Under the pieces are notes generated by a model. The model made no database searches, was not told where the DNA came from, and worked only from the letters and a program-made list of their open reading frames with translations. The translations under genes and the position numbers were made by a program. From an uncultured Clostridia bacterium (lineage in GTDB: Bacteria > Bacillota > Clostridia > Christensenellales > Borkfalkiaceae), in the NCBI GenBank assembly GCA_947629095.1, contig CANRCK010000003.1:124001-188000 (forward strand): a stretch of 64,000 nucleotides of DNA. The letters are read 5' to 3'. This document shows, in pieces, positions 49,501 through 55,699 of this stretch (within the stretch, counting starts at the first letter, position 1; the number at the start of each line of letters is the position of its first letter).

Positions 49501-50229
49501 CTTGCCGGAGCCGAGCCGGAAATACTCGTAATAAAAAACCGCACGCCTGCGGATATCGAGGAGAGCGTGCGTGCAATAATAAAAGCAATAGACGGCTGTA
49601 ATATAATCGCCTTCCCCGGCGGTTTTTCGGGCGGCGACGAGCCGGACGGTTCGGGGAAATTTATAGCCACAACGTTTAAAAATCCTGCAATTTCCGAAAG
49701 GATTATGGAGCTGATAAACCATCGTGACGGGCTTGTCCTCGGAATATGCAACGGCTTTCAGGCGCTGATAAAGCTCGGACTCGTGCCCTACGGTAAAGTT
49801 TGTCCTCTAACTTCGGGGTCGCCCACCTTAACGTACAATAATATTTCAAGGCACGTTTCAACTATGGTAAATATTCGCGTTGCTTCGACGATAAGCCCCT
49901 GGCTTTCGGCTTGCAAAGTGGGCGAAATTTATTCCGTGCCTGTGTCGCACGGCGAGGGTAAGCTTGTTGCGCCGCAAAAGGAGCTTGAAAAGATGCGCCG
50001 GAGCGGGCAGATTGCAACCCAATACGTGGATTTATCCGGCAAGCCCACAATGCTCAGTCCCTACAATCCAAACGGGAGCAACTGGGCGATTGAAGGAATT
50101 ACTTCGCCCGACGGCAGAGTGTTCGGTAAAATGGGGCACAGCGAGAGAACAGGCGTAAATCTTTATAAAAATTTCGACGGAAATTTTGATATGAAGATAT
50201 TCGAGAGCGGCGTTAAATATTTTAAATAA
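46531..50229 (+). CDS. purL: FGAM synthase, single-chain form with glutaminase domain (PurL)
   Basis: It makes FGAM from FGAR, glutamine and ATP. 1232 residues, the clostridial one-chain type: an N-terminal PurS-like region, the synthase domains with YWSDHCRHTTF and FKNETHNHPTEIEPFGGAATC, a second PurM-like half with IGGKDSMSGTF, and a C-terminal class I glutaminase whose Cys is in LVLGICNGFQALI, with His and Glu in PVSHGEGKL. Separate purS and purQ genes are therefore not needed. It ends the operon. Confidence 0.97.
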   Translation: MFRIYVEKKNNLKAKQVKSDILNLLKISVDDVRLLLRYDVDGISEEEFNAAVPCVFSEPPVDNVYFETVSFPEGYSVFAIAYLTGQYDQRADSAAQCVQLLTQKERPIIKCANIYAIKGADGGQLERIKKHLINPVESEEVSLEKPSSLCHVTVEAEDVKDVEGFITFDDCAIRGYHKKMGLAMSVEDLAFVRDYFKKEGRNPTETEIKVIDTYWSDHCRHTTFSTELNNITVNSDNSKVEEALNLYRSLFAELYKNRPEKYPCLMDIATIAAKKLKKEGKLDNLDESDEINACSIKVDAVLDGKPQKYTVMFKNETHNHPTEIEPFGGAATCLGGAIRDPLSGRTYVLQSMRVTGCSDPTEPIENTLPGKLPQRIITKTAAAGFSSYGNQIGLATGQVDEVYHPGYRAKRLETGFVVGGAKSDMIYREKPKKGDIIVLLGGETGRDGCGGATGSSKAHDKKSVQTCGAEVQKGNALTERKLQRLFLNKKATTLIKKCNDFGAGGVSVAIGELADGLEIQLDRVPKKYEGLSGTELAISESQERMAVVVAKENVQKFISLAAAENLNATPVAVVTDDRRIKMFYRGRAIVNISRDFLDTNGVKQVTDAEINESITTFFDAPDKKPFQVAAKETLAHLNVCSKKGLAEMFDSTIGAKSVYMPFGGKYQLTPVIAMAAKFTGGETDDCTVSAYGYNPDLMSASPFTGAIYSIVASVSKVVAVGAKYEDIRLSLQEFFMRLREDKKRWGVPLSALLGALYAQMGLGLGAIGGKDSMSGTFEDIDVPPTLISFALAPSKASELITNVLRSKGEKLYVLPIKKDKNLIPDFEYLKKLYSEVNSNIKSGNIEFATVIEKGGAFAAVAKSCFGNGLGFVFTADYNTLFAERYGEIIVSARDITVFNGIEVVELGSTAEGGFTLGEESISFAEALSAYTDKLEGVFPATAFAGGDIPDCDYSGEKKYTCIATKIAKPRVFIPAFPGTNCELDTARAFALAGAEPEILVIKNRTPADIEESVRAIIKAIDGCNIIAFPGGFSGGDEPDGSGKFIATTFKNPAISERIMELINHRDGLVLGICNGFQALIKLGLVPYGKVCPLTSGSPTLTYNNISRHVSTMVNIRVASTISPWLSACKVGEIYSVPVSHGEGKLVAPQKELEKMRRSGQIATQYVDLSGKPTMLSPYNPNGSNWAIEGITSPDGRVFGKMGHSERTGVNLYKNFDGNFDMKIFESGVKYFK

Positions 50230-50276
50230 TGCAACAAACGGCTCAATCGCTCAGATTACGGTTTTTGTTCAAACGC

Positions 50277-50305
50277 TTTACAAAAGGAATATATCGTGTT
50301 ATAAT
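50277..50305 (+). promoter_or_regulatory. Promoter of nrdR
   Basis: TTTACA (50277-50282), 17 bases, TATAAT (50300-50305). Confidence 0.75.
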
Positions 50306-50342
50306 AGTACAAACAATACAATATATGACGAGGGGTTGACGT

Positions 50343-50801
50343 ATGAAATGTTTATATTGCGGCTGTGAGGACAGCAAGGTTATAGACAGCCGTTCTGCGG
50401 ACGAGGGAAGGACCATAAGAAGAAGACGCGAGTGCATTCAATGCGGCAAGCGGTTTACTACGTACGAGACGATTGAGGATACGCCCGTCCTTGTTATAAA
50501 GTCAAGCGGGCTGCGCCAAGCATACGATCCACAGAAGATTAAAAACGGTATTATAAAATCCTGTGAAAAGCGCCCGGTATCGCTCAACGCGATTGACGAC
50601 ATTGTATCAACAATAACCAAAAAAATTTACAACTCCATGGAGCAGGAAATTTCCTCCAAAAAAATCGGGGAAATGGTTATGGAAGAGCTTAAAAAGGTAG
50701 ATGAAGTCGCCTATGTGCGATATGCAAGCGTTTACCGCTCGTTCAAGGATATACCAAGCTTTATGGAAGAGCTTCAAAAGCTGATGGAAAATAAAAATTA
50801 A
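50343..50801 (+). CDS. nrdR: Transcriptional repressor NrdR
   Basis: It represses ribonucleotide reductase genes in response to dATP/ATP. 152 residues: a zinc ribbon (MKCLYCGCEDSKVIDSR, then ECIQCGKRFTTYE) and an ATP-cone (VIKSSGLRQAYDPQKIKNGI). GAGGGG precedes the ATG. No ribonucleotide reductase gene is in the window. Confidence 0.96.
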   Translation: MKCLYCGCEDSKVIDSRSADEGRTIRRRRECIQCGKRFTTYETIEDTPVLVIKSSGLRQAYDPQKIKNGIIKSCEKRPVSLNAIDDIVSTITKKIYNSMEQEISSKKIGEMVMEELKKVDEVAYVRYASVYRSFKDIPSFMEELQKLMENKN

Positions 50802-50843
50802 TTGTTGCAGACAGTGAATTTCACTGTCTGTATTCTTTGAATT

Positions 50844-51899
50844 ATGCAATATATAACCGATAAAGTCAAAATAGGCAACGTCGCCGTCGGCGGCGGCGAA
50901 AGCGTAAAAATTCAATCTATGTGCACAACAAAGACGTCCGATATTGACGCCACGTGCACACAAATTTTGCGGCTTGAAGAGGCTGGGTGCCAAATTATAC
51001 GCGTTTCGGTCCTCGACGAAAGCGATGCGTATGCAATAAAAGAAATAAAAAAGAAAATTCATATTCCCTTGGTTGCGGATATACATTTTTCTGCCGCGCT
51101 TGCGGTAAAAGCAATTGAAAACGGTTGCGATAAGGTCCGCATAAACCCCGGCAATATAGGCGGAGAAAGAGAAATAAAGTATGTTGCCGATTGCATAAAG
51201 GAACACGATATTGCCGTAAGAGTTGGCTCGAACACCGGCAGCATAGAAAAAGAGTTTCTTCAAAAGTACGGCAAAAACGAGTACTCACTGGTTGAAAGCG
51301 CCTTAAAAAGCGTAGGAATTTTGGAAAAGTACGGAGTCCGAAAAATTGTGATTTCCGTAAAGGCTTCAAGCGTGCCGTTGACCGTCAAGGCGTACAGGCT
51401 GCTGGCGACCCGCACACAGTATCCGCTGCACTTGGGGGTGACCGAAGCCGGCACCGAACAGATGGCGGTGGTAAAATCGTCAGCTGCTCTGGGCGCTCTT
51501 CTTCTGGACGGAATAGGCGACACATTGCGTATCTCCATAACCGACGACCCGGTTAAGGAAGTTATTGCCGCGCGCAGGCTGCTGCGCGCCGTCGGTCTCG
51601 ACATGAATTTTGTGAATGTAATCTCCTGCCCGACGTGCGGCAGATGTATGTGGAATTCCATGGAGATCGCAAACAAAGTGTCTGGGTACGTTGAGAACAG
51701 CGCCAAGCGGCTAAATATCGCCGTAATGGGCTGCGTTGTGAACGGTCCCGGAGAGGCAAGGGATTGCGATCTCGGGATTGCCGGAGCAAAGGACTATTGC
51801 ATAATTTTCAAAGGCGGCGAAATTATAGCAAAAGTTGATGCAAAGGACGCCGAAAAAGAATTTTTTAAGGAGATAGATAAATTTTTAAATGAGCGGTGA
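50844..51899 (+). CDS. ispG: 4-hydroxy-3-methylbut-2-enyl diphosphate synthase (IspG)
   Basis: A [4Fe-4S] enzyme of the non-mevalonate isoprenoid route. 351 residues: a TIM barrel opening with KIQSMCTTKTSDID, VADIHFSA, KVRINPGNIG, and a C-terminal cluster domain with ISCPTCGRC and MGCVVNGPGEA. It overlaps the next gene by 11 bases. In many clostridia it is preceded by dxr and rseP and followed by polC; here it is preceded by nrdR. Confidence 0.96.
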   Translation: MQYITDKVKIGNVAVGGGESVKIQSMCTTKTSDIDATCTQILRLEEAGCQIIRVSVLDESDAYAIKEIKKKIHIPLVADIHFSAALAVKAIENGCDKVRINPGNIGGEREIKYVADCIKEHDIAVRVGSNTGSIEKEFLQKYGKNEYSLVESALKSVGILEKYGVRKIVISVKASSVPLTVKAYRLLATRTQYPLHLGVTEAGTEQMAVVKSSAALGALLLDGIGDTLRISITDDPVKEVIAARRLLRAVGLDMNFVNVISCPTCGRCMWNSMEIANKVSGYVENSAKRLNIAVMGCVVNGPGEARDCDLGIAGAKDYCIIFKGGEIIAKVDAKDAEKEFFKEIDKFLNER

Positions 51900-53427
51900 T
51901 ATTTTATCGGCAGTGCGCGCTTCGTCACAAAACTTAAAAAACGCCATATTGCGCTCCGTCACCGTGGAAAGAGCAACGCGCACAGTAAAAATAGAAGTTG
52001 TAACGGACAATACTTTCAGCGAAGCGGACACAAATTCCGCGCTGGGCGCTGTTAAGCCTTATATTCCCGAATATTTCGATTGTATCGTCAACGTCATAAA
52101 GCTGATGCCCGACTGCGAAATGGTAAAACATAAAATAGAGGAAGCCATATCCGTAAATTTCAAGGCAATTTATGTTACTTTGATCGAAGGGGACGTAACG
52201 GTTGAAAAAACCACCAGCGGATTTGATTATACGGTTGCGGTGATGCCCTTTTTGCAGGTCGGGCAGGATTTTACCGAAAAAATCAACGCATATCTTTCCG
52301 CAAACTTCTGCGGAGAGTTCAGCGGGGAATGCATTTCTTCACAGAGGGGGGTGAGCGATATAAATATAGCCGAAAAACCGGATGAAATAGAATATGAAAT
52401 CCCCGTGCGCACATTTGCTATAAATGATTTCAGGTATCTCGAAGGTACAAAAAAACAGACTTCGGCGGTTTATCTTGCCGATTTGAATTTTGCGGCGGAA
52501 GAGGTTGTTATTTGCGGAACCATAGAACAGCTGAACGAGAGGGAATATACCAATAAAAAGGGCGTCAAAAAAACATATTTATCATTGATTATTTCCGATA
52601 CGACCGCAAGCGTACATATAACTTACTTCATCCGCCAAAAAACTTATGATAAAATCAAGAGTCTCAAAGTCGGCGACAGTATAGTCTGCACAGGCTCGAA
52701 CGAAATGTATAACGGGAGCCTCAGATATACCGCGAATATCATAGATTACGGCAAATTTCCTAAAAATTTCGTGCCGGAACAAAGGCAATCAAAACCCGTT
52801 CCAAAATACTATCATTTTGTTTCTCCACAGCCGTTTTCCGATATCGAGCAGACCGATTTCTTTACCCAAAGAATAATCCCCGAATGCTTGAAAAACAACA
52901 CTTTTGTGGTTTTCGATCTCGAAACGACGGGTTTGAATTCTTCGCCCGTATCAGGCAATATGGACAGGATAATAGAGATAGGCGCCTATAAGATCGTTGA
53001 CGGGCAAATCTGTGAATCTTTTTCTACGTTTATAAATCCCCAAAGGAAACTTTCCGATGAAATCATAAAACTTACGGGTATCACAGAAGAGATGGTTTCC
53101 GGCGCGCCCACGTATGAGGAAGTTATGCCGGATTTCTACAAATTTTGCAGCGGCAGCATACTTGTAGGGCACAATATTGTTGGTTTTGACTATAAATTTG
53201 TGGAGTATTATTGCGCACGTCTCGGCTATATTCTCGACAGAAACATGATTGACACCATTCCGCTTTCGCAGGAGCTTTTGTTTTTGCCTAATTATAAGCT
53301 CAATACCGTGGCGGAGAAGTTTAATATAACTTTCAATCATCACAGGGCTATAGATGACGCGCTTGCCACGGCAAAAATATTTATAGAGCTTATAAAACTT
53401 AAAAAATCTTTGCCCAAGACGGCATAA
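51889..53427 (+). CDS. PolC-like protein reduced to N-terminal, OB and DEDDh exonuclease domains
   Basis: 512 residues at the usual polC place between ispG and rimP. Residues 1-190 resemble the PolC N-terminal domain, 190-290 an OB fold (VVICGTIEQLNEREYTNKKG, SLKVGDSIVCTGS), and 335-505 a DEDDh proofreading domain with all catalytic residues: D343 and E345 in FDLETTGL, VGHNIVGFDYKF, and H485-x-A-x-x-D490. The PHP segment that surrounds the exonuclease in PolC and the whole polymerase part are absent, and the frame closes cleanly after LKKSLPKTA. It could be a free exonuclease or repair factor. Full-length PolC is about 1,400 residues. Confidence 0.82.
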   Translation: MSGDILSAVRASSQNLKNAILRSVTVERATRTVKIEVVTDNTFSEADTNSALGAVKPYIPEYFDCIVNVIKLMPDCEMVKHKIEEAISVNFKAIYVTLIEGDVTVEKTTSGFDYTVAVMPFLQVGQDFTEKINAYLSANFCGEFSGECISSQRGVSDINIAEKPDEIEYEIPVRTFAINDFRYLEGTKKQTSAVYLADLNFAAEEVVICGTIEQLNEREYTNKKGVKKTYLSLIISDTTASVHITYFIRQKTYDKIKSLKVGDSIVCTGSNEMYNGSLRYTANIIDYGKFPKNFVPEQRQSKPVPKYYHFVSPQPFSDIEQTDFFTQRIIPECLKNNTFVVFDLETTGLNSSPVSGNMDRIIEIGAYKIVDGQICESFSTFINPQRKLSDEIIKLTGITEEMVSGAPTYEEVMPDFYKFCSGSILVGHNIVGFDYKFVEYYCARLGYILDRNMIDTIPLSQELLFLPNYKLNTVAEKFNITFNHHRAIDDALATAKIFIELIKLKKSLPKTA

Positions 53428-53442
53428 ATTGCCAAAAAAAAG

Positions 53443-53471
53443 TTGCAATTTTAGCTACGGTATGTTAAAAT
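53443..53471 (+). promoter_or_regulatory. Promoter of the rimP-nusA-infB operon
   Basis: TTGCAA (53443-53448), 17 bases, TAAAAT (53466-53471). Transcription should begin at about 53478, ahead of the leader hairpin. Confidence 0.7.
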
Positions 53472-53498
53472 AAACATAACCTTAATAGAAATGTTAAG

Positions 53499-53524
53499 AT
53501 TGAGTGTCCTTCGGGGCACTCAAT
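53499..53524 (+). other. Leader hairpin with UUCG tetraloop upstream of rimP
   Basis: ATTGAGTGTCC (53499-53509) pairs with GGGCACTCAAT (53514-53524), with one G-U pair, capped by TTCG. No T-run follows, so it is not a standard terminator. It lies in the predicted 5' leader of the nusA operon, 20 bases before rimP. Confidence 0.6.
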
Positions 53525-53543
53525 ACTTGTATTAGAGGATTGT

Positions 53544-54002
53544 ATGGACGTAAAACCTTTGTGCGAGATCCGTGCGTTTATCGAGGGCATAGCCGGTCCC
53601 ATGGGCATTGAAGTCGTTGATGTGGAGTGGAACGACCGTTCGGCGGAGCTTACCGTGTATATAGATACGGAGAACGGGGTGGATCTGGACACGTGCGAAA
53701 AATTCCATAATGCCATAATGGACCCTATCGACGAATTGGACCCGACATACGATAAACCATATACGCTTAACGTATCCAGCCCGGGACTTGACAGACCTTT
53801 TAAAACGGACAGGGATTTTGAAAGGAACCTTAACAAGGAAGTGGAGGTTAAACTCTATGCGCCTTTAAAAGGAAAAAAATATCTCGAAGGGATGTTGACG
53901 GGCTATGACGGCAACTGCATTACATTAAAAACCGAAAGGGAAGAGTTGAAAATCGCTCTCAACAAAGTCGCAAAAATAAATAAAGCAATTAAATTTGAAT
54001 AA
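53544..54002 (+). CDS. rimP: Ribosome maturation factor RimP
   Basis: It assists 30S assembly. 152 residues: the N-terminal domain with MGIEVVDVEWN and LTVYIDTENGVDLDTCE, the linker NVSSPGLDRPFKTDRDF, and a C-terminal SH3-like domain. It is the first gene of the rimP-to-ribF cluster; 27 bases separate it from nusA. Confidence 0.95.
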   Translation: MDVKPLCEIRAFIEGIAGPMGIEVVDVEWNDRSAELTVYIDTENGVDLDTCEKFHNAIMDPIDELDPTYDKPYTLNVSSPGLDRPFKTDRDFERNLNKEVEVKLYAPLKGKKYLEGMLTGYDGNCITLKTEREELKIALNKVAKINKAIKFE

Positions 54003-54029
54003 ACCTTACAAATTGTCAGGAGAAATAAA

Positions 54030-55106
54030 ATGACCAACAAAGATTTTTTTGTAGCATTGGAAGACCTTGAAAAGGAAAAAGGCATACCTCAGGAAGTGTT
54101 TATGGAAGCGCTTTCCAACGCCCTCGTTTCAGCATGCAAAAAGCAATATGCCGGTGCGGCGGGGAAGGTGGATATAAAGCTCAATCCCGAAAAGGGCACG
54201 ATCGACTTTTATACCGTTAAATCGGTTGTTGAAGAAGTAGTCGACCGCGAGACGGAGATTTCCTTGGAGGACGCCCAAAAAATCAAAAAAAGCTACAAAG
54301 TAGGCGATCAGGTTGCCGAAAAGTTTGTCCCCAAAGATTTCAGCCGCATAGCTGCGCAAACGGCAAAACAGGTTATTCTGCAAAAGATCCACGAGACCGA
54401 GCGCGACGCCGCCATGAACGAGTTCTCCAACAAAGAGGGCGAGCTTTTGGTGGGCGTTATAAGAAAAATCGACGCACGCAACGTCTACGTCGAACTCGGC
54501 AAAGGGCAGGTGGAGGGGCTTATGCTTCCTTCCGACCAAGTGCCCGGGGAGAAATATAACGTTAACGACAAAATAAAGGTCTTTGTAAAGCGCGTAAAGA
54601 GCGGTTATAACGGCGCACAAGTGCTGGTAAGCCGTTCTGCGCCCGGTTTGGTGAGAAAGCTCTTTGAAGAAGAGGTTCCCGAAATAAAGCAGGGCACCGT
54701 GATAATAAAAGAAATCAGCCGGGAAGCGGGGGCAAGAACCAAGATGGCTATCTACTCCGAAGACGAAAGAGTGGACGCCATAGGCGCGTGCGTTGGCAAT
54801 AAGGGCGCAAGGGTAAACGCCATAGTAGAAGAGCTCAGGGGCGAAAAGATAGATATTATTCCCTGGAGCGACAATCCTTTGGAGTTTATTGCAAAGGCGC
54901 TTTCTCCGGCAAAGGTAATTTCCGTAACGCAGCTTGACGGCGACAAGACAGCCATGGCTGTAGTGCCCGACGACAAGCTGTCGCTTGCAATAGGCAAGGA
55001 CGGACAAAACGCACGTCTTGCCGTAAGACTAACGGGTTGGAAAATCGACGTTAAAAGCGAATCCGCGGCTGCAAAGCTCGGTTTCATAGCGCCCGAACAG
55101 GGATAA
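54030..55106 (+). CDS. nusA: Transcription termination/antitermination factor NusA
   Basis: 358 residues, the short Gram-positive form without the C-terminal acidic repeats. An N-terminal RNA polymerase-binding domain is followed by S1 (EGELLVGVIRKIDARNVYVELG), KH1 (GACVGNKGARVNAIVEEL) and KH2 (LAIGKDGQNARLAVRLTGW). AGGAG precedes the ATG. Followed by rnpM after 13 bases. Confidence 0.97.
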   Translation: MTNKDFFVALEDLEKEKGIPQEVFMEALSNALVSACKKQYAGAAGKVDIKLNPEKGTIDFYTVKSVVEEVVDRETEISLEDAQKIKKSYKVGDQVAEKFVPKDFSRIAAQTAKQVILQKIHETERDAAMNEFSNKEGELLVGVIRKIDARNVYVELGKGQVEGLMLPSDQVPGEKYNVNDKIKVFVKRVKSGYNGAQVLVSRSAPGLVRKLFEEEVPEIKQGTVIIKEISREAGARTKMAIYSEDERVDAIGACVGNKGARVNAIVEELRGEKIDIIPWSDNPLEFIAKALSPAKVISVTQLDGDKTAMAVVPDDKLSLAIGKDGQNARLAVRLTGWKIDVKSESAAAKLGFIAPEQG

Positions 55107-55119
55107 TAAGGAAGAGTTT

Positions 55120-55395
55120 ATGCCCGATAAAAAAATTCCCCTTCGCCAGTGTATAGCGTGCAGAGAACTCAAGGAAAAGCGGTCGATGCTGAGGATTGTA
55201 AAGAATTCCGAAGGCAAAATTTTTCTTGATTTCTCCTCAAAGGCGGCGGGGAGGGGAGCTTATATTTGCAACAACCCCGAGTGTATTAAAAAACTTAAAA
55301 AAGGACGGCTTCTGAACAGGGTGTTCGCCTGTGCGGTGGACGATGTGGTTTATACCGCCGTTGAGGAGGAATATTTTGGGAAGAACCAAAATTGA
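55120..55395 (+). CDS. rnpM: RNase P modulator RnpM (YlxR)
   Basis: 91 residues: IPLRQCIACRELKEKRSMLRIVK at the start, then GRGAYICNNPECIKK, the pattern of the YlxR family, shown in Bacillus to bind RNase P RNA. The two cysteine pairs may hold zinc. The gene is linked to nusA in all Gram-positives. It overlaps ylxQ by 20 bases. Confidence 0.92.
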   Translation: MPDKKIPLRQCIACRELKEKRSMLRIVKNSEGKIFLDFSSKAAGRGAYICNNPECIKKLKKGRLLNRVFACAVDDVVYTAVEEEYFGKNQN

Positions 55396-55699
55396 AACGT
55401 TCATAGGGTTCTGCAAAAAGGCAGGCAAGCTTTCGCTCGGCTCAGGTGCGGTCGATACGCTTAAAAAGGAAGTATATTTGCTGATAGTCAGCGCCGACGC
55501 ATCCGAAAACACAAAAAAGCTTGCCGTAAAATATAAAAACAGATTTATGTGCCCGCTGCTTATCTGTAAATCCGAATTTGATTTTATTGTAAATAAACCG
55601 GGCTGTAAAATTGCGGCGGTGCGGGACGGACAGCTGGCAAAAGCTATTTTGGATAACTTAGACGATAACTACGAATTATATGCCGGAGGCAATTATTAA
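55376..55699 (+). CDS. ylxQ: L7Ae-family RNA-binding protein YlxQ, TTG start
   Basis: 107 residues of the L7Ae/L30e fold: IETFIGFCKKAGKLSLGSGAV, VYLLIVSADASENTKK, and the kink-turn-binding region. The likely start is TTG at 55376, because GAGGAGGAA lies directly upstream and the fold begins right there; no ATG is suitably placed. It overlaps rnpM by 20 bases. The exact ligand RNA is not settled. Confidence 0.85.
   Translation: MGRTKIETFIGFCKKAGKLSLGSGAVDTLKKEVYLLIVSADASENTKKLAVKYKNRFMCPLLICKSEFDFIVNKPGCKIAAVRDGQLAKAILDNLDDNYELYAGGNY

Follow-up and report, generated by a model that had tools for sequence, protein, structure and literature searches.

The DNA analysed here, called the window, is a stretch of 64,000 nucleotides from an uncultured Clostridia bacterium (order Christensenellales, family Borkfalkiaceae; contig CANRCK010000003.1, positions 124,001 to 188,000). 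Most Bacillota depend on PolC as their essential replicase. In the polC slot of the window lies a gene for a protein of only 512 residues, which is PolC minus both PHP segments and everything after the exonuclease. This short protein is likely to act as a clamp-tethered proofreading subunit and structural partner of DnaE, comparable to the epsilon subunit of E. coli DNA polymerase III but of other origin. An earlier interpretation made from the letters alone (the sequence-only reading) had already recognised the truncated architecture; new are a conserved motif in the linker and the existence of dead versions in three lineages.

Domains and locus of the short protein

The gene and its parts, all on the + strand, are as follows.
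51889..53427, +: gene of the 512-residue PolC-derived protein, ATG start and TAA stop, encoding N-terminal domains, OB fold, linker and DEDDh exonuclease, without PHP and without polymerase
51892..52338, +: N-terminal domains of PolC type, residues 2-150 (modelled by AlphaFold2 as two alpha/beta subdomains; hhalign against PolC N-termini)
52462..52755, +: OB fold, residues 192-289 (Pfam and AlphaFold2; E 4.5e-6 for the PolC structure 3f2b over profile positions 199-308)
52756..52899, +: linker, residues 290-337, at the position of PolC's first PHP segment in the alignment with PolCs
52849..52863, +: QTDFF, residues 321-325, resembling a clamp-binding motif (consensus QxxLF)
52900..53403, +: DEDDh exonuclease domain, residues 338-505 (PF00929, E 4.2e-39; catalytic residues)

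The OB fold and the complete exonuclease site named in the sequence-only reading were both recovered with Pfam. RNase_T (PF00929) spans residues 340-498, and the five catalytic residues D343, E345, D434, H485 and D490 are in place, while the OB-fold match at residues 206-278 (E 1e-4) lies under Pfam's cut-off. The top NCBIfam matches are PolC models and cover the OB and exonuclease parts only. The PolC model NF001688 was aligned at model positions 225-325 and 419-589 and nowhere else, and its score of 177.4 bits missed the curated cut-off of 873. A PolC-type N-terminus had also been claimed. It was invisible to single-sequence Pfam searches, which gave just one weak NII match (E 0.025) for the N-termini of 25 homologues, though profile-profile comparison supported it: with hhalign, the first ~150 residues of the short proteins matched those of same-order PolCs colinearly (probability 97.3, E 2.3e-11), and the probability was 99.4 for N-terminus plus OB fold.

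The AlphaFold2 model had a mean predicted local distance difference test score (pLDDT) of 88.6 and a predicted template modelling score (pTM) of 0.62. It consists of two small alpha/beta N-terminal domains, an OB fold at 192-289 and, joined to it by the linker, the exonuclease at 338-505; in the linker, mean pLDDT is 83-89 up to residue 320 and drops to 62 at residues 321-330. In the PDB, the model matched the PolC chain 9qpc best (E 2e-18); next came a second PolC chain, PolC exonuclease and DinG/DnaQ-type exonucleases. The PolC exonuclease 2p1j was also matched by profile A1 with E 5e-59.

Because the N-terminal, OB and exonuclease homology is colinear, the protein can be described as PolC without PHP and without the part following the exonuclease. 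Two features that define PolC are present, namely the N-terminal KH-like pair followed by an OB fold (hhalign, AlphaFold2 model) and the PolC-type DEDDh exonuclease. The C-family polymerase domain is absent, and the alignment with PolCs shows that the split PHP is missing on both sides of the exonuclease, as the sequence-only reading had stated. Thus, the 512-residue protein is not a PolC.

The gene order is ispG–512-residue gene–rimP–nusA, with these neighbours:
50844..51899, +: ispG, whose end shares 11 nt with the start of the 512-residue gene; neighbour in 43/45 short-protein loci
53544..54002, +: rimP, the next gene downstream; neighbour in 41/45 short-protein loci
54030-55106: nusA, after rimP

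The earlier description of an intact frame with a clean stop and no polymerase remnant ahead of rimP was confirmed, as the + strand carries no further long frame in the 116 bases upstream of rimP. The locus is conserved among relatives. Of the 45 distinct loci with a short protein, 39 showed both ispG and rimP and the remaining 6 showed either ispG or rimP. At PolC loci of the same order, ispG lies beside PolC in 12/15 and is accompanied by rimP in 8/15. A promoter-like site (53443-53471, consensus match only) precedes rimP, and together with a hairpin it falls within 53443-53524, between the 512-residue gene and rimP. An Rfam scan of the window from 50200 to 55400 gave zero matches.

PolC, DnaE and the short protein across the order

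The sequence-only reading had left two options for replication, a PolC elsewhere in the genome or another polymerase. The window's own genome (G000) is a metagenome-assembled genome (MAG) that is 85% complete. A search of it for PF07733 and the C-family polymerase found no PolC polymerase domain, and the idea of a PolC elsewhere in G000 was rejected; DnaE was likewise not found there. Among 48 same-genus genomes, a DnaE-type match (DNA_pol3_alpha) was found in 45, of which 44 covered the whole profile (frames of 830-1266 residues) and one, G036, was partial; it was missing in G005, G010 and G047. None of these genomes had the PolC-type pair of polymerase matches in a ~1400-residue frame that is seen in other families, and among PolC-less relatives no C-family replicase other than DnaE was seen. 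The option of another polymerase is supported, with DnaE as the candidate. A second, weak DNA_pol3_alpha match was noted in four same-genus genomes (G031, G042, G043 and G048; frames of 269-681 residues).

An organism without DnaE was considered and rejected. By short protein, the nearest relative with a DnaE is G006. Its dnaE neighbourhood (16.8 kb) gave just two matches in G000, each under 100 bases; the dnaE region is therefore probably missing from the G000 assembly. In another part of G000, a 289-residue frame (L002, G000:C3:63339-63578) weakly matched the PolC model in its PHP part (E 3.5e-5, positions 329-411) and is perhaps an ordinary stand-alone PHP enzyme.

In a sample of 247 genomes of the order, 81 carried PolC polymerase sequence, 79 of them above the curated cut-off and two in fragments (G095 and G106). 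For the remaining 166, all at least 90% complete except G000, the best E value with the PolC model was no better than 3e-55, which is the strength of an exonuclease-only match. PolC status tracked the family codes with the sole exception of G086, a genome of the PolC family f11 that lacks PolC. As an ispG match is also absent in G086 and in G481, the polC region is probably unassembled in both.

A profile of 25 short proteins was searched against the same 247 genomes. It matched with E 2.1e-70 or better in 136/166 PolC-less genomes and in 0/81 PolC genomes, where the best match (1.4e-69) was a PolC frame. Most of the 136 matched nearly the whole profile and some partially, with frames of 438-556 residues. 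The 30 PolC-less genomes below the threshold comprised G086 and 29 genomes from three lineages, namely f16 (8), f19 (18) and genus g73 of f32 (3).

In a DnaE tree of 30 rows obtained by a quick search (13 with and 17 without PolC, five of the latter from the window's family; no DnaE3 row), PolC status changed once, on a branch with a Shimodaira–Hasegawa-like approximate likelihood ratio (SH-aLRT) of 100. Outside the window's family, DnaE end branches measured 0.59-1.12 in the PolC-less set and 0.51-0.73 in the PolC set, a tendency towards greater length that may reflect faster change of DnaE after PolC was gone. A second quick tree, built on 171 exonuclease columns, separated 33 selected active short forms from all other rows by one branch (SH-aLRT 98). 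It also held 33 PolCs and 9 other DnaQ-like exonucleases, which fell among the PolC rows, apart from the short forms; it took in neither dead short forms nor a true epsilon.

The rule that loss of PolC always leaves a short protein was rejected. The families f63 (G328, G351) and f97 (G505, G527, G549, G560) outside the order have no PolC above the cut-off, and none of these six genomes had a full-length short match; ispG was present in 4/4 of those tested. Two f97 genomes encode a ~200-residue DnaQ-like protein. In a phylum sample of 158 genomes besides G000, the best E value with the short profile was 1.3e-70, and the best among the matches listed were PolC frames. Hence no full-length short form was found outside the order in these 158 and six genomes, by a search of the phylum sample that would miss degenerate forms; the class sample was searched with the PolC model only.

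The short protein also occurs in named MAGs of Candidatus Coproplasma and Candidatus Gallimonas. The last 300 residues of the Coproplasma avicola protein (L126) are identical to those of G028, a genome of the window's genus; the NCBI taxonomy places Coproplasma in Eubacteriales incertae sedis. G042 encodes a diverged short protein (L079, 37% identity) and, elsewhere, a 213-residue exonuclease-only homologue (L080, about 50% identity) without the glutamine motif described below. L076 from G063 was rejected as a short form, as its sequence reads as an unrelated exonuclease-BRCT-like protein; the f16 form is L218.

A clamp-binding-like linker motif and inactivated forms

The linker of the short proteins comprises ~45 residues after the OB fold with the pattern Y..V.P followed by Qxx[LF]F, where PolC has PHP. 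Conservation was studied in 100 aligned short proteins from fetched loci. The set left out L076 as unrelated, L081 and L082 as second copies of L035 and L036, the partial, edge or exonuclease-only sequences L060, L080, L149, L168, L173, L186 and L190, frames of more than 900 residues, and the duplicates L126 and L166 (last 300 residues identical); N-termini were trimmed in 7 frames of more than 560 residues. The pattern Qxx[LMIFV][FLY] occurs at one alignment column in 86/100, as QTDFF in the window. The weighted frequency of its glutamine is 0.89 with variable neighbours, and in alignment A2 (16 rows, 5 dead) this glutamine is one of 7 invariant columns. A stricter pattern was found in 84/100 linkers compared with 3.5 on average and 8 at most in 200 shuffles. 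In the 42 residues before the exonuclease, the motif was found in 0/34 PolCs (38 were taken and 4 dropped, as the script did not locate the exonuclease). All 15 same-order PolCs examined by eye carry a C-terminal Qxx-type motif; the short protein lacks this C-terminal clamp motif, which was lost along with the polymerase.

The commonest motif by which bacterial proteins bind the clamp has the general form QxxLF, and changes at its last positions are reported to weaken this binding (PMC12309361). The linker motif thus predicts tethering of the short protein to the sliding clamp, and the earlier designation as a "free" exonuclease is probably wrong. A clamp-type motif is also present in 21/22 full DnaE frames of the order, the exception being G071. 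On the strength of this motif and of a published rule assigning clostridial DnaE to DnaE1 (PMC3919608), we call the order's DnaE a putative DnaE1.

All five catalytic residues are intact in 92/100 short proteins and lost in 8/100, a ratio that is no estimate of the frequency of dead forms, as an active-site pattern served to find the named loci. Eight of the 29 sub-threshold genomes were opened (G063, G091, G123, G066, G094, G111, G155 and G260). All of them encode a protein of 485-546 residues with a dead exonuclease, beside ispG in 8/8 and rimP in 7/8. A ninth dead form came from G162 (f19), which itself belongs to the 136 genomes above the threshold. Inactivation in f19 arose inside the family, as the exonuclease of its genus g84 (G195) is intact. 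The dead proteins are L204, L208, L211, L213, L214, L215, L218, L077 and L247, from three lineages. Small DnaQ-like exonucleases of 192-202 residues (L222, L223, L226, L227 and L228) were observed in genomes with a dead short protein.

The short protein is under purifying selection. In four same-genus pairs, the ratio of non-synonymous to synonymous differences per site (pN/pS) was 0.04-0.12 for the exonuclease, 0.05-0.23 for the linker and 0.19-0.33 for the N-terminus, values that are rough, with synonymous sites near saturation in most pairs. The exonuclease was the most constrained domain in three of the four active pairs and nearly equal to the OB fold in the fourth. Two dead pairs gave 0.24-0.30. 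One dead protein was still predicted with an exonuclease fold (pLDDT 81.9, pTM 0.44) from an alignment that included active relatives.

Proposed function of the short protein and related systems

The domain architecture, the locus, the pattern on the trees, the conservation of the motif and the purifying selection are shown by the data above, whereas binding to the clamp, contact with DnaE, nuclease activity and proofreading are predicted. The polymerase half of PolC would have disappeared, together with both PHP segments, in an ancestor from which a large section of this clostridial order descends, and DnaE would have been left there as the sole replicase. The remaining N-terminal, OB and exonuclease domains would have stayed in the polC slot and been retained as a separate replisome subunit. 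This subunit would most likely sit on the sliding clamp via the Qxx[L/F]F motif of the linker replacing PHP, next to DnaE with its own clamp motif. The OB and N-terminal domains may help to hold single-stranded DNA (ssDNA) or partner proteins, and the DEDDh site would take off mispaired 3' ends. In three lineages the nuclease site would then have decayed and the motif mostly weakened (the glutamine stays, the last residue is often changed) with the protein retained. As it was kept after the nuclease decayed, a structural role is probable in the dead lineages too. More tentative, and held at slightly less than even chances, is the full account in which a replicase was dismantled once, its polymerase discarded and the remainder made into another polymerase's epsilon-like subunit, a clamp motif being gained exactly where PHP was lost; several lineages would later have dropped catalysis, so that the place in the replisome, and not only the nuclease, was kept.

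Several observations weigh against the reading as a clamp-tethered proofreader of DnaE. In the window's own assembly, dnaE is missing. The profile of 25 proteins that found no short form in the 81 PolC genomes is blind to degenerate forms in them. The motif is unmatched in 14/100 homologues: eight have an intact exonuclease (three with ETTLF, one each with VKSVF and ANTVF, and L075, L078 and L172), and six belong to the eight dead forms (QMNFV, QINFV, QMSFV, QIRFD, QLSFA and QTQTLF). As the nuclease is dead in three lineages, proofreading cannot be the universal function. Finally, PHP ligand-type segments are found in nearly all DnaE rows and DnaE may therefore proofread itself, which may make the DEDDh site redundant. 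The pattern search behind this point, which takes the PHP ligand positions used as given, matched the first segment in 29/30 and the last in 30/30 rows, in both the PolC and the PolC-less sets; the f26 DnaE is truncated, and in L016 and L029 individual segments went without a match.

The strongest rival, which we regard as unlikely but the most serious of the alternatives, is a mainly structural job, such as bridging clamp, DnaE, ssDNA or clamp loader, with the nuclease activity being secondary. It would account for the nine proteins from three lineages that lack the DEDDh set and keep their length, for their retained locus (eight of nine were neighbour-checked; all lie by ispG, seven also with rimP), for the motif glutamine, which is retained in 8/8 dead aligned forms, and for the constraint and predicted fold of the dead versions. 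However, the great majority of the aligned proteins keep the full catalytic set and the exonuclease is mostly the best-constrained domain. In the dead forms, the full motif pattern survives in 2/8 only (QSSLY) and is degraded beyond the glutamine in the other six, and the tether is thus not clearly the feature that was kept.

Less probable still is a repair or RNA-processing exonuclease outside the replisome, with the motif serving clamp recruitment at repair sites and the PHP of DnaE proofreading replication. Various repair proteins bind the clamp via such motifs (PMC12309361), inactive short versions exist and the DnaE of PolC-less families carries the PHP ligand-type segments. These same segments are found in the DnaE of PolC-bearing relatives, though, and PHP is thus no new takeover; the short protein descends from PolC, occupies the polC locus and replaces PolC, all of which points to the replisome. 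That a full PolC exists elsewhere and the short protein is a paralogue is very improbable: absence from the 85% complete G000 alone would be weak proof, but 166 genomes show exonuclease-only match strength and PolC-less families have DnaE-type matches without the PolC-type pair in a ~1400-residue frame. A decaying polC pseudogene, or an assembly error or frameshift hiding a full polC, is suggested by the polC position, the missing domains and the incomplete MAG and is equally improbable in view of intact ~510-residue frames in many families, their single group on the exonuclease tree, purifying selection and loss on both sides of the exonuclease.

The short protein shares with PolC the locus and the colinear N-terminal, OB and exonuclease domains, and its best matches among solved structures are PolC chains (2p1j, 9qpc). 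It differs from PolC by lacking PHP, polymerase and C-terminal clamp motif and by its clamp-like motif in the linker instead. In E. coli, epsilon (DnaQ) is likewise a DEDDh protein of its own that accompanies a DnaE replicase. Near its exonuclease it carries a clamp-type motif, QTSMAF directly after the catalytic domain (PMC3642679). In contrast, the clamp-like motif of the PolC-derived short protein lies before the exonuclease, soon after which the protein ends, and extra N-terminal and OB domains are present. It passed the cut-off of the DnaQ-family model TIGR00573 (112.4 vs 71.5 bits) and failed the stricter dnaQ_proteo model (96.1 vs 222.7). It was not filed as an epsilon; locus and N-terminal homology favour descent from PolC. 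In PolA2/APEX, a loop of the vestigial, inactive exonuclease domain bears a QxxLF clamp motif; PolA2/APEX is an unrelated A-family polymerase that retains its polymerase (PMC12926913).

A PolC remnant of this kind is not mentioned in the parts consulted of Timinskas et al. 2013 (PMC3919608) and of a 2026 survey (PMC12926913). No published description of the short protein was recognised in the portion of the PubMed Central literature covered, a scope outside of which lie preprints and most subscription papers. Timinskas et al. raised the question whether clostridial DnaE1 alone could replicate the genome (PMC3919608). A clade of uncultured gut bacteria in which DnaE appears to be the sole replicase and the PolC proofreading module a separate protein would be a natural experiment on how replisomes switch polymerase while keeping fidelity. 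PolC is a drug target (PMC12592400), and PolC inhibitors would be predicted not to act via PolC on these bacteria.

Loss of domains from PolC is known from Clostridia that also have DnaE1. According to Timinskas et al. 2013, 6% of PolCs are without the exonuclease insertion and some Clostridia have DnaE1 only (PMC3919608). Such variants lost the exonuclease and kept the polymerase, unlike the short protein, of which they are the mirror image. A related situation was observed within the order, where full-length PolCs with a DEDDh-dead inserted exonuclease were found in f11 (L234-L243, 10/10 of the fetched PolCs, which were mostly picked for weak matches) and f13 (L098); in these, PolC is retained without the nuclease.

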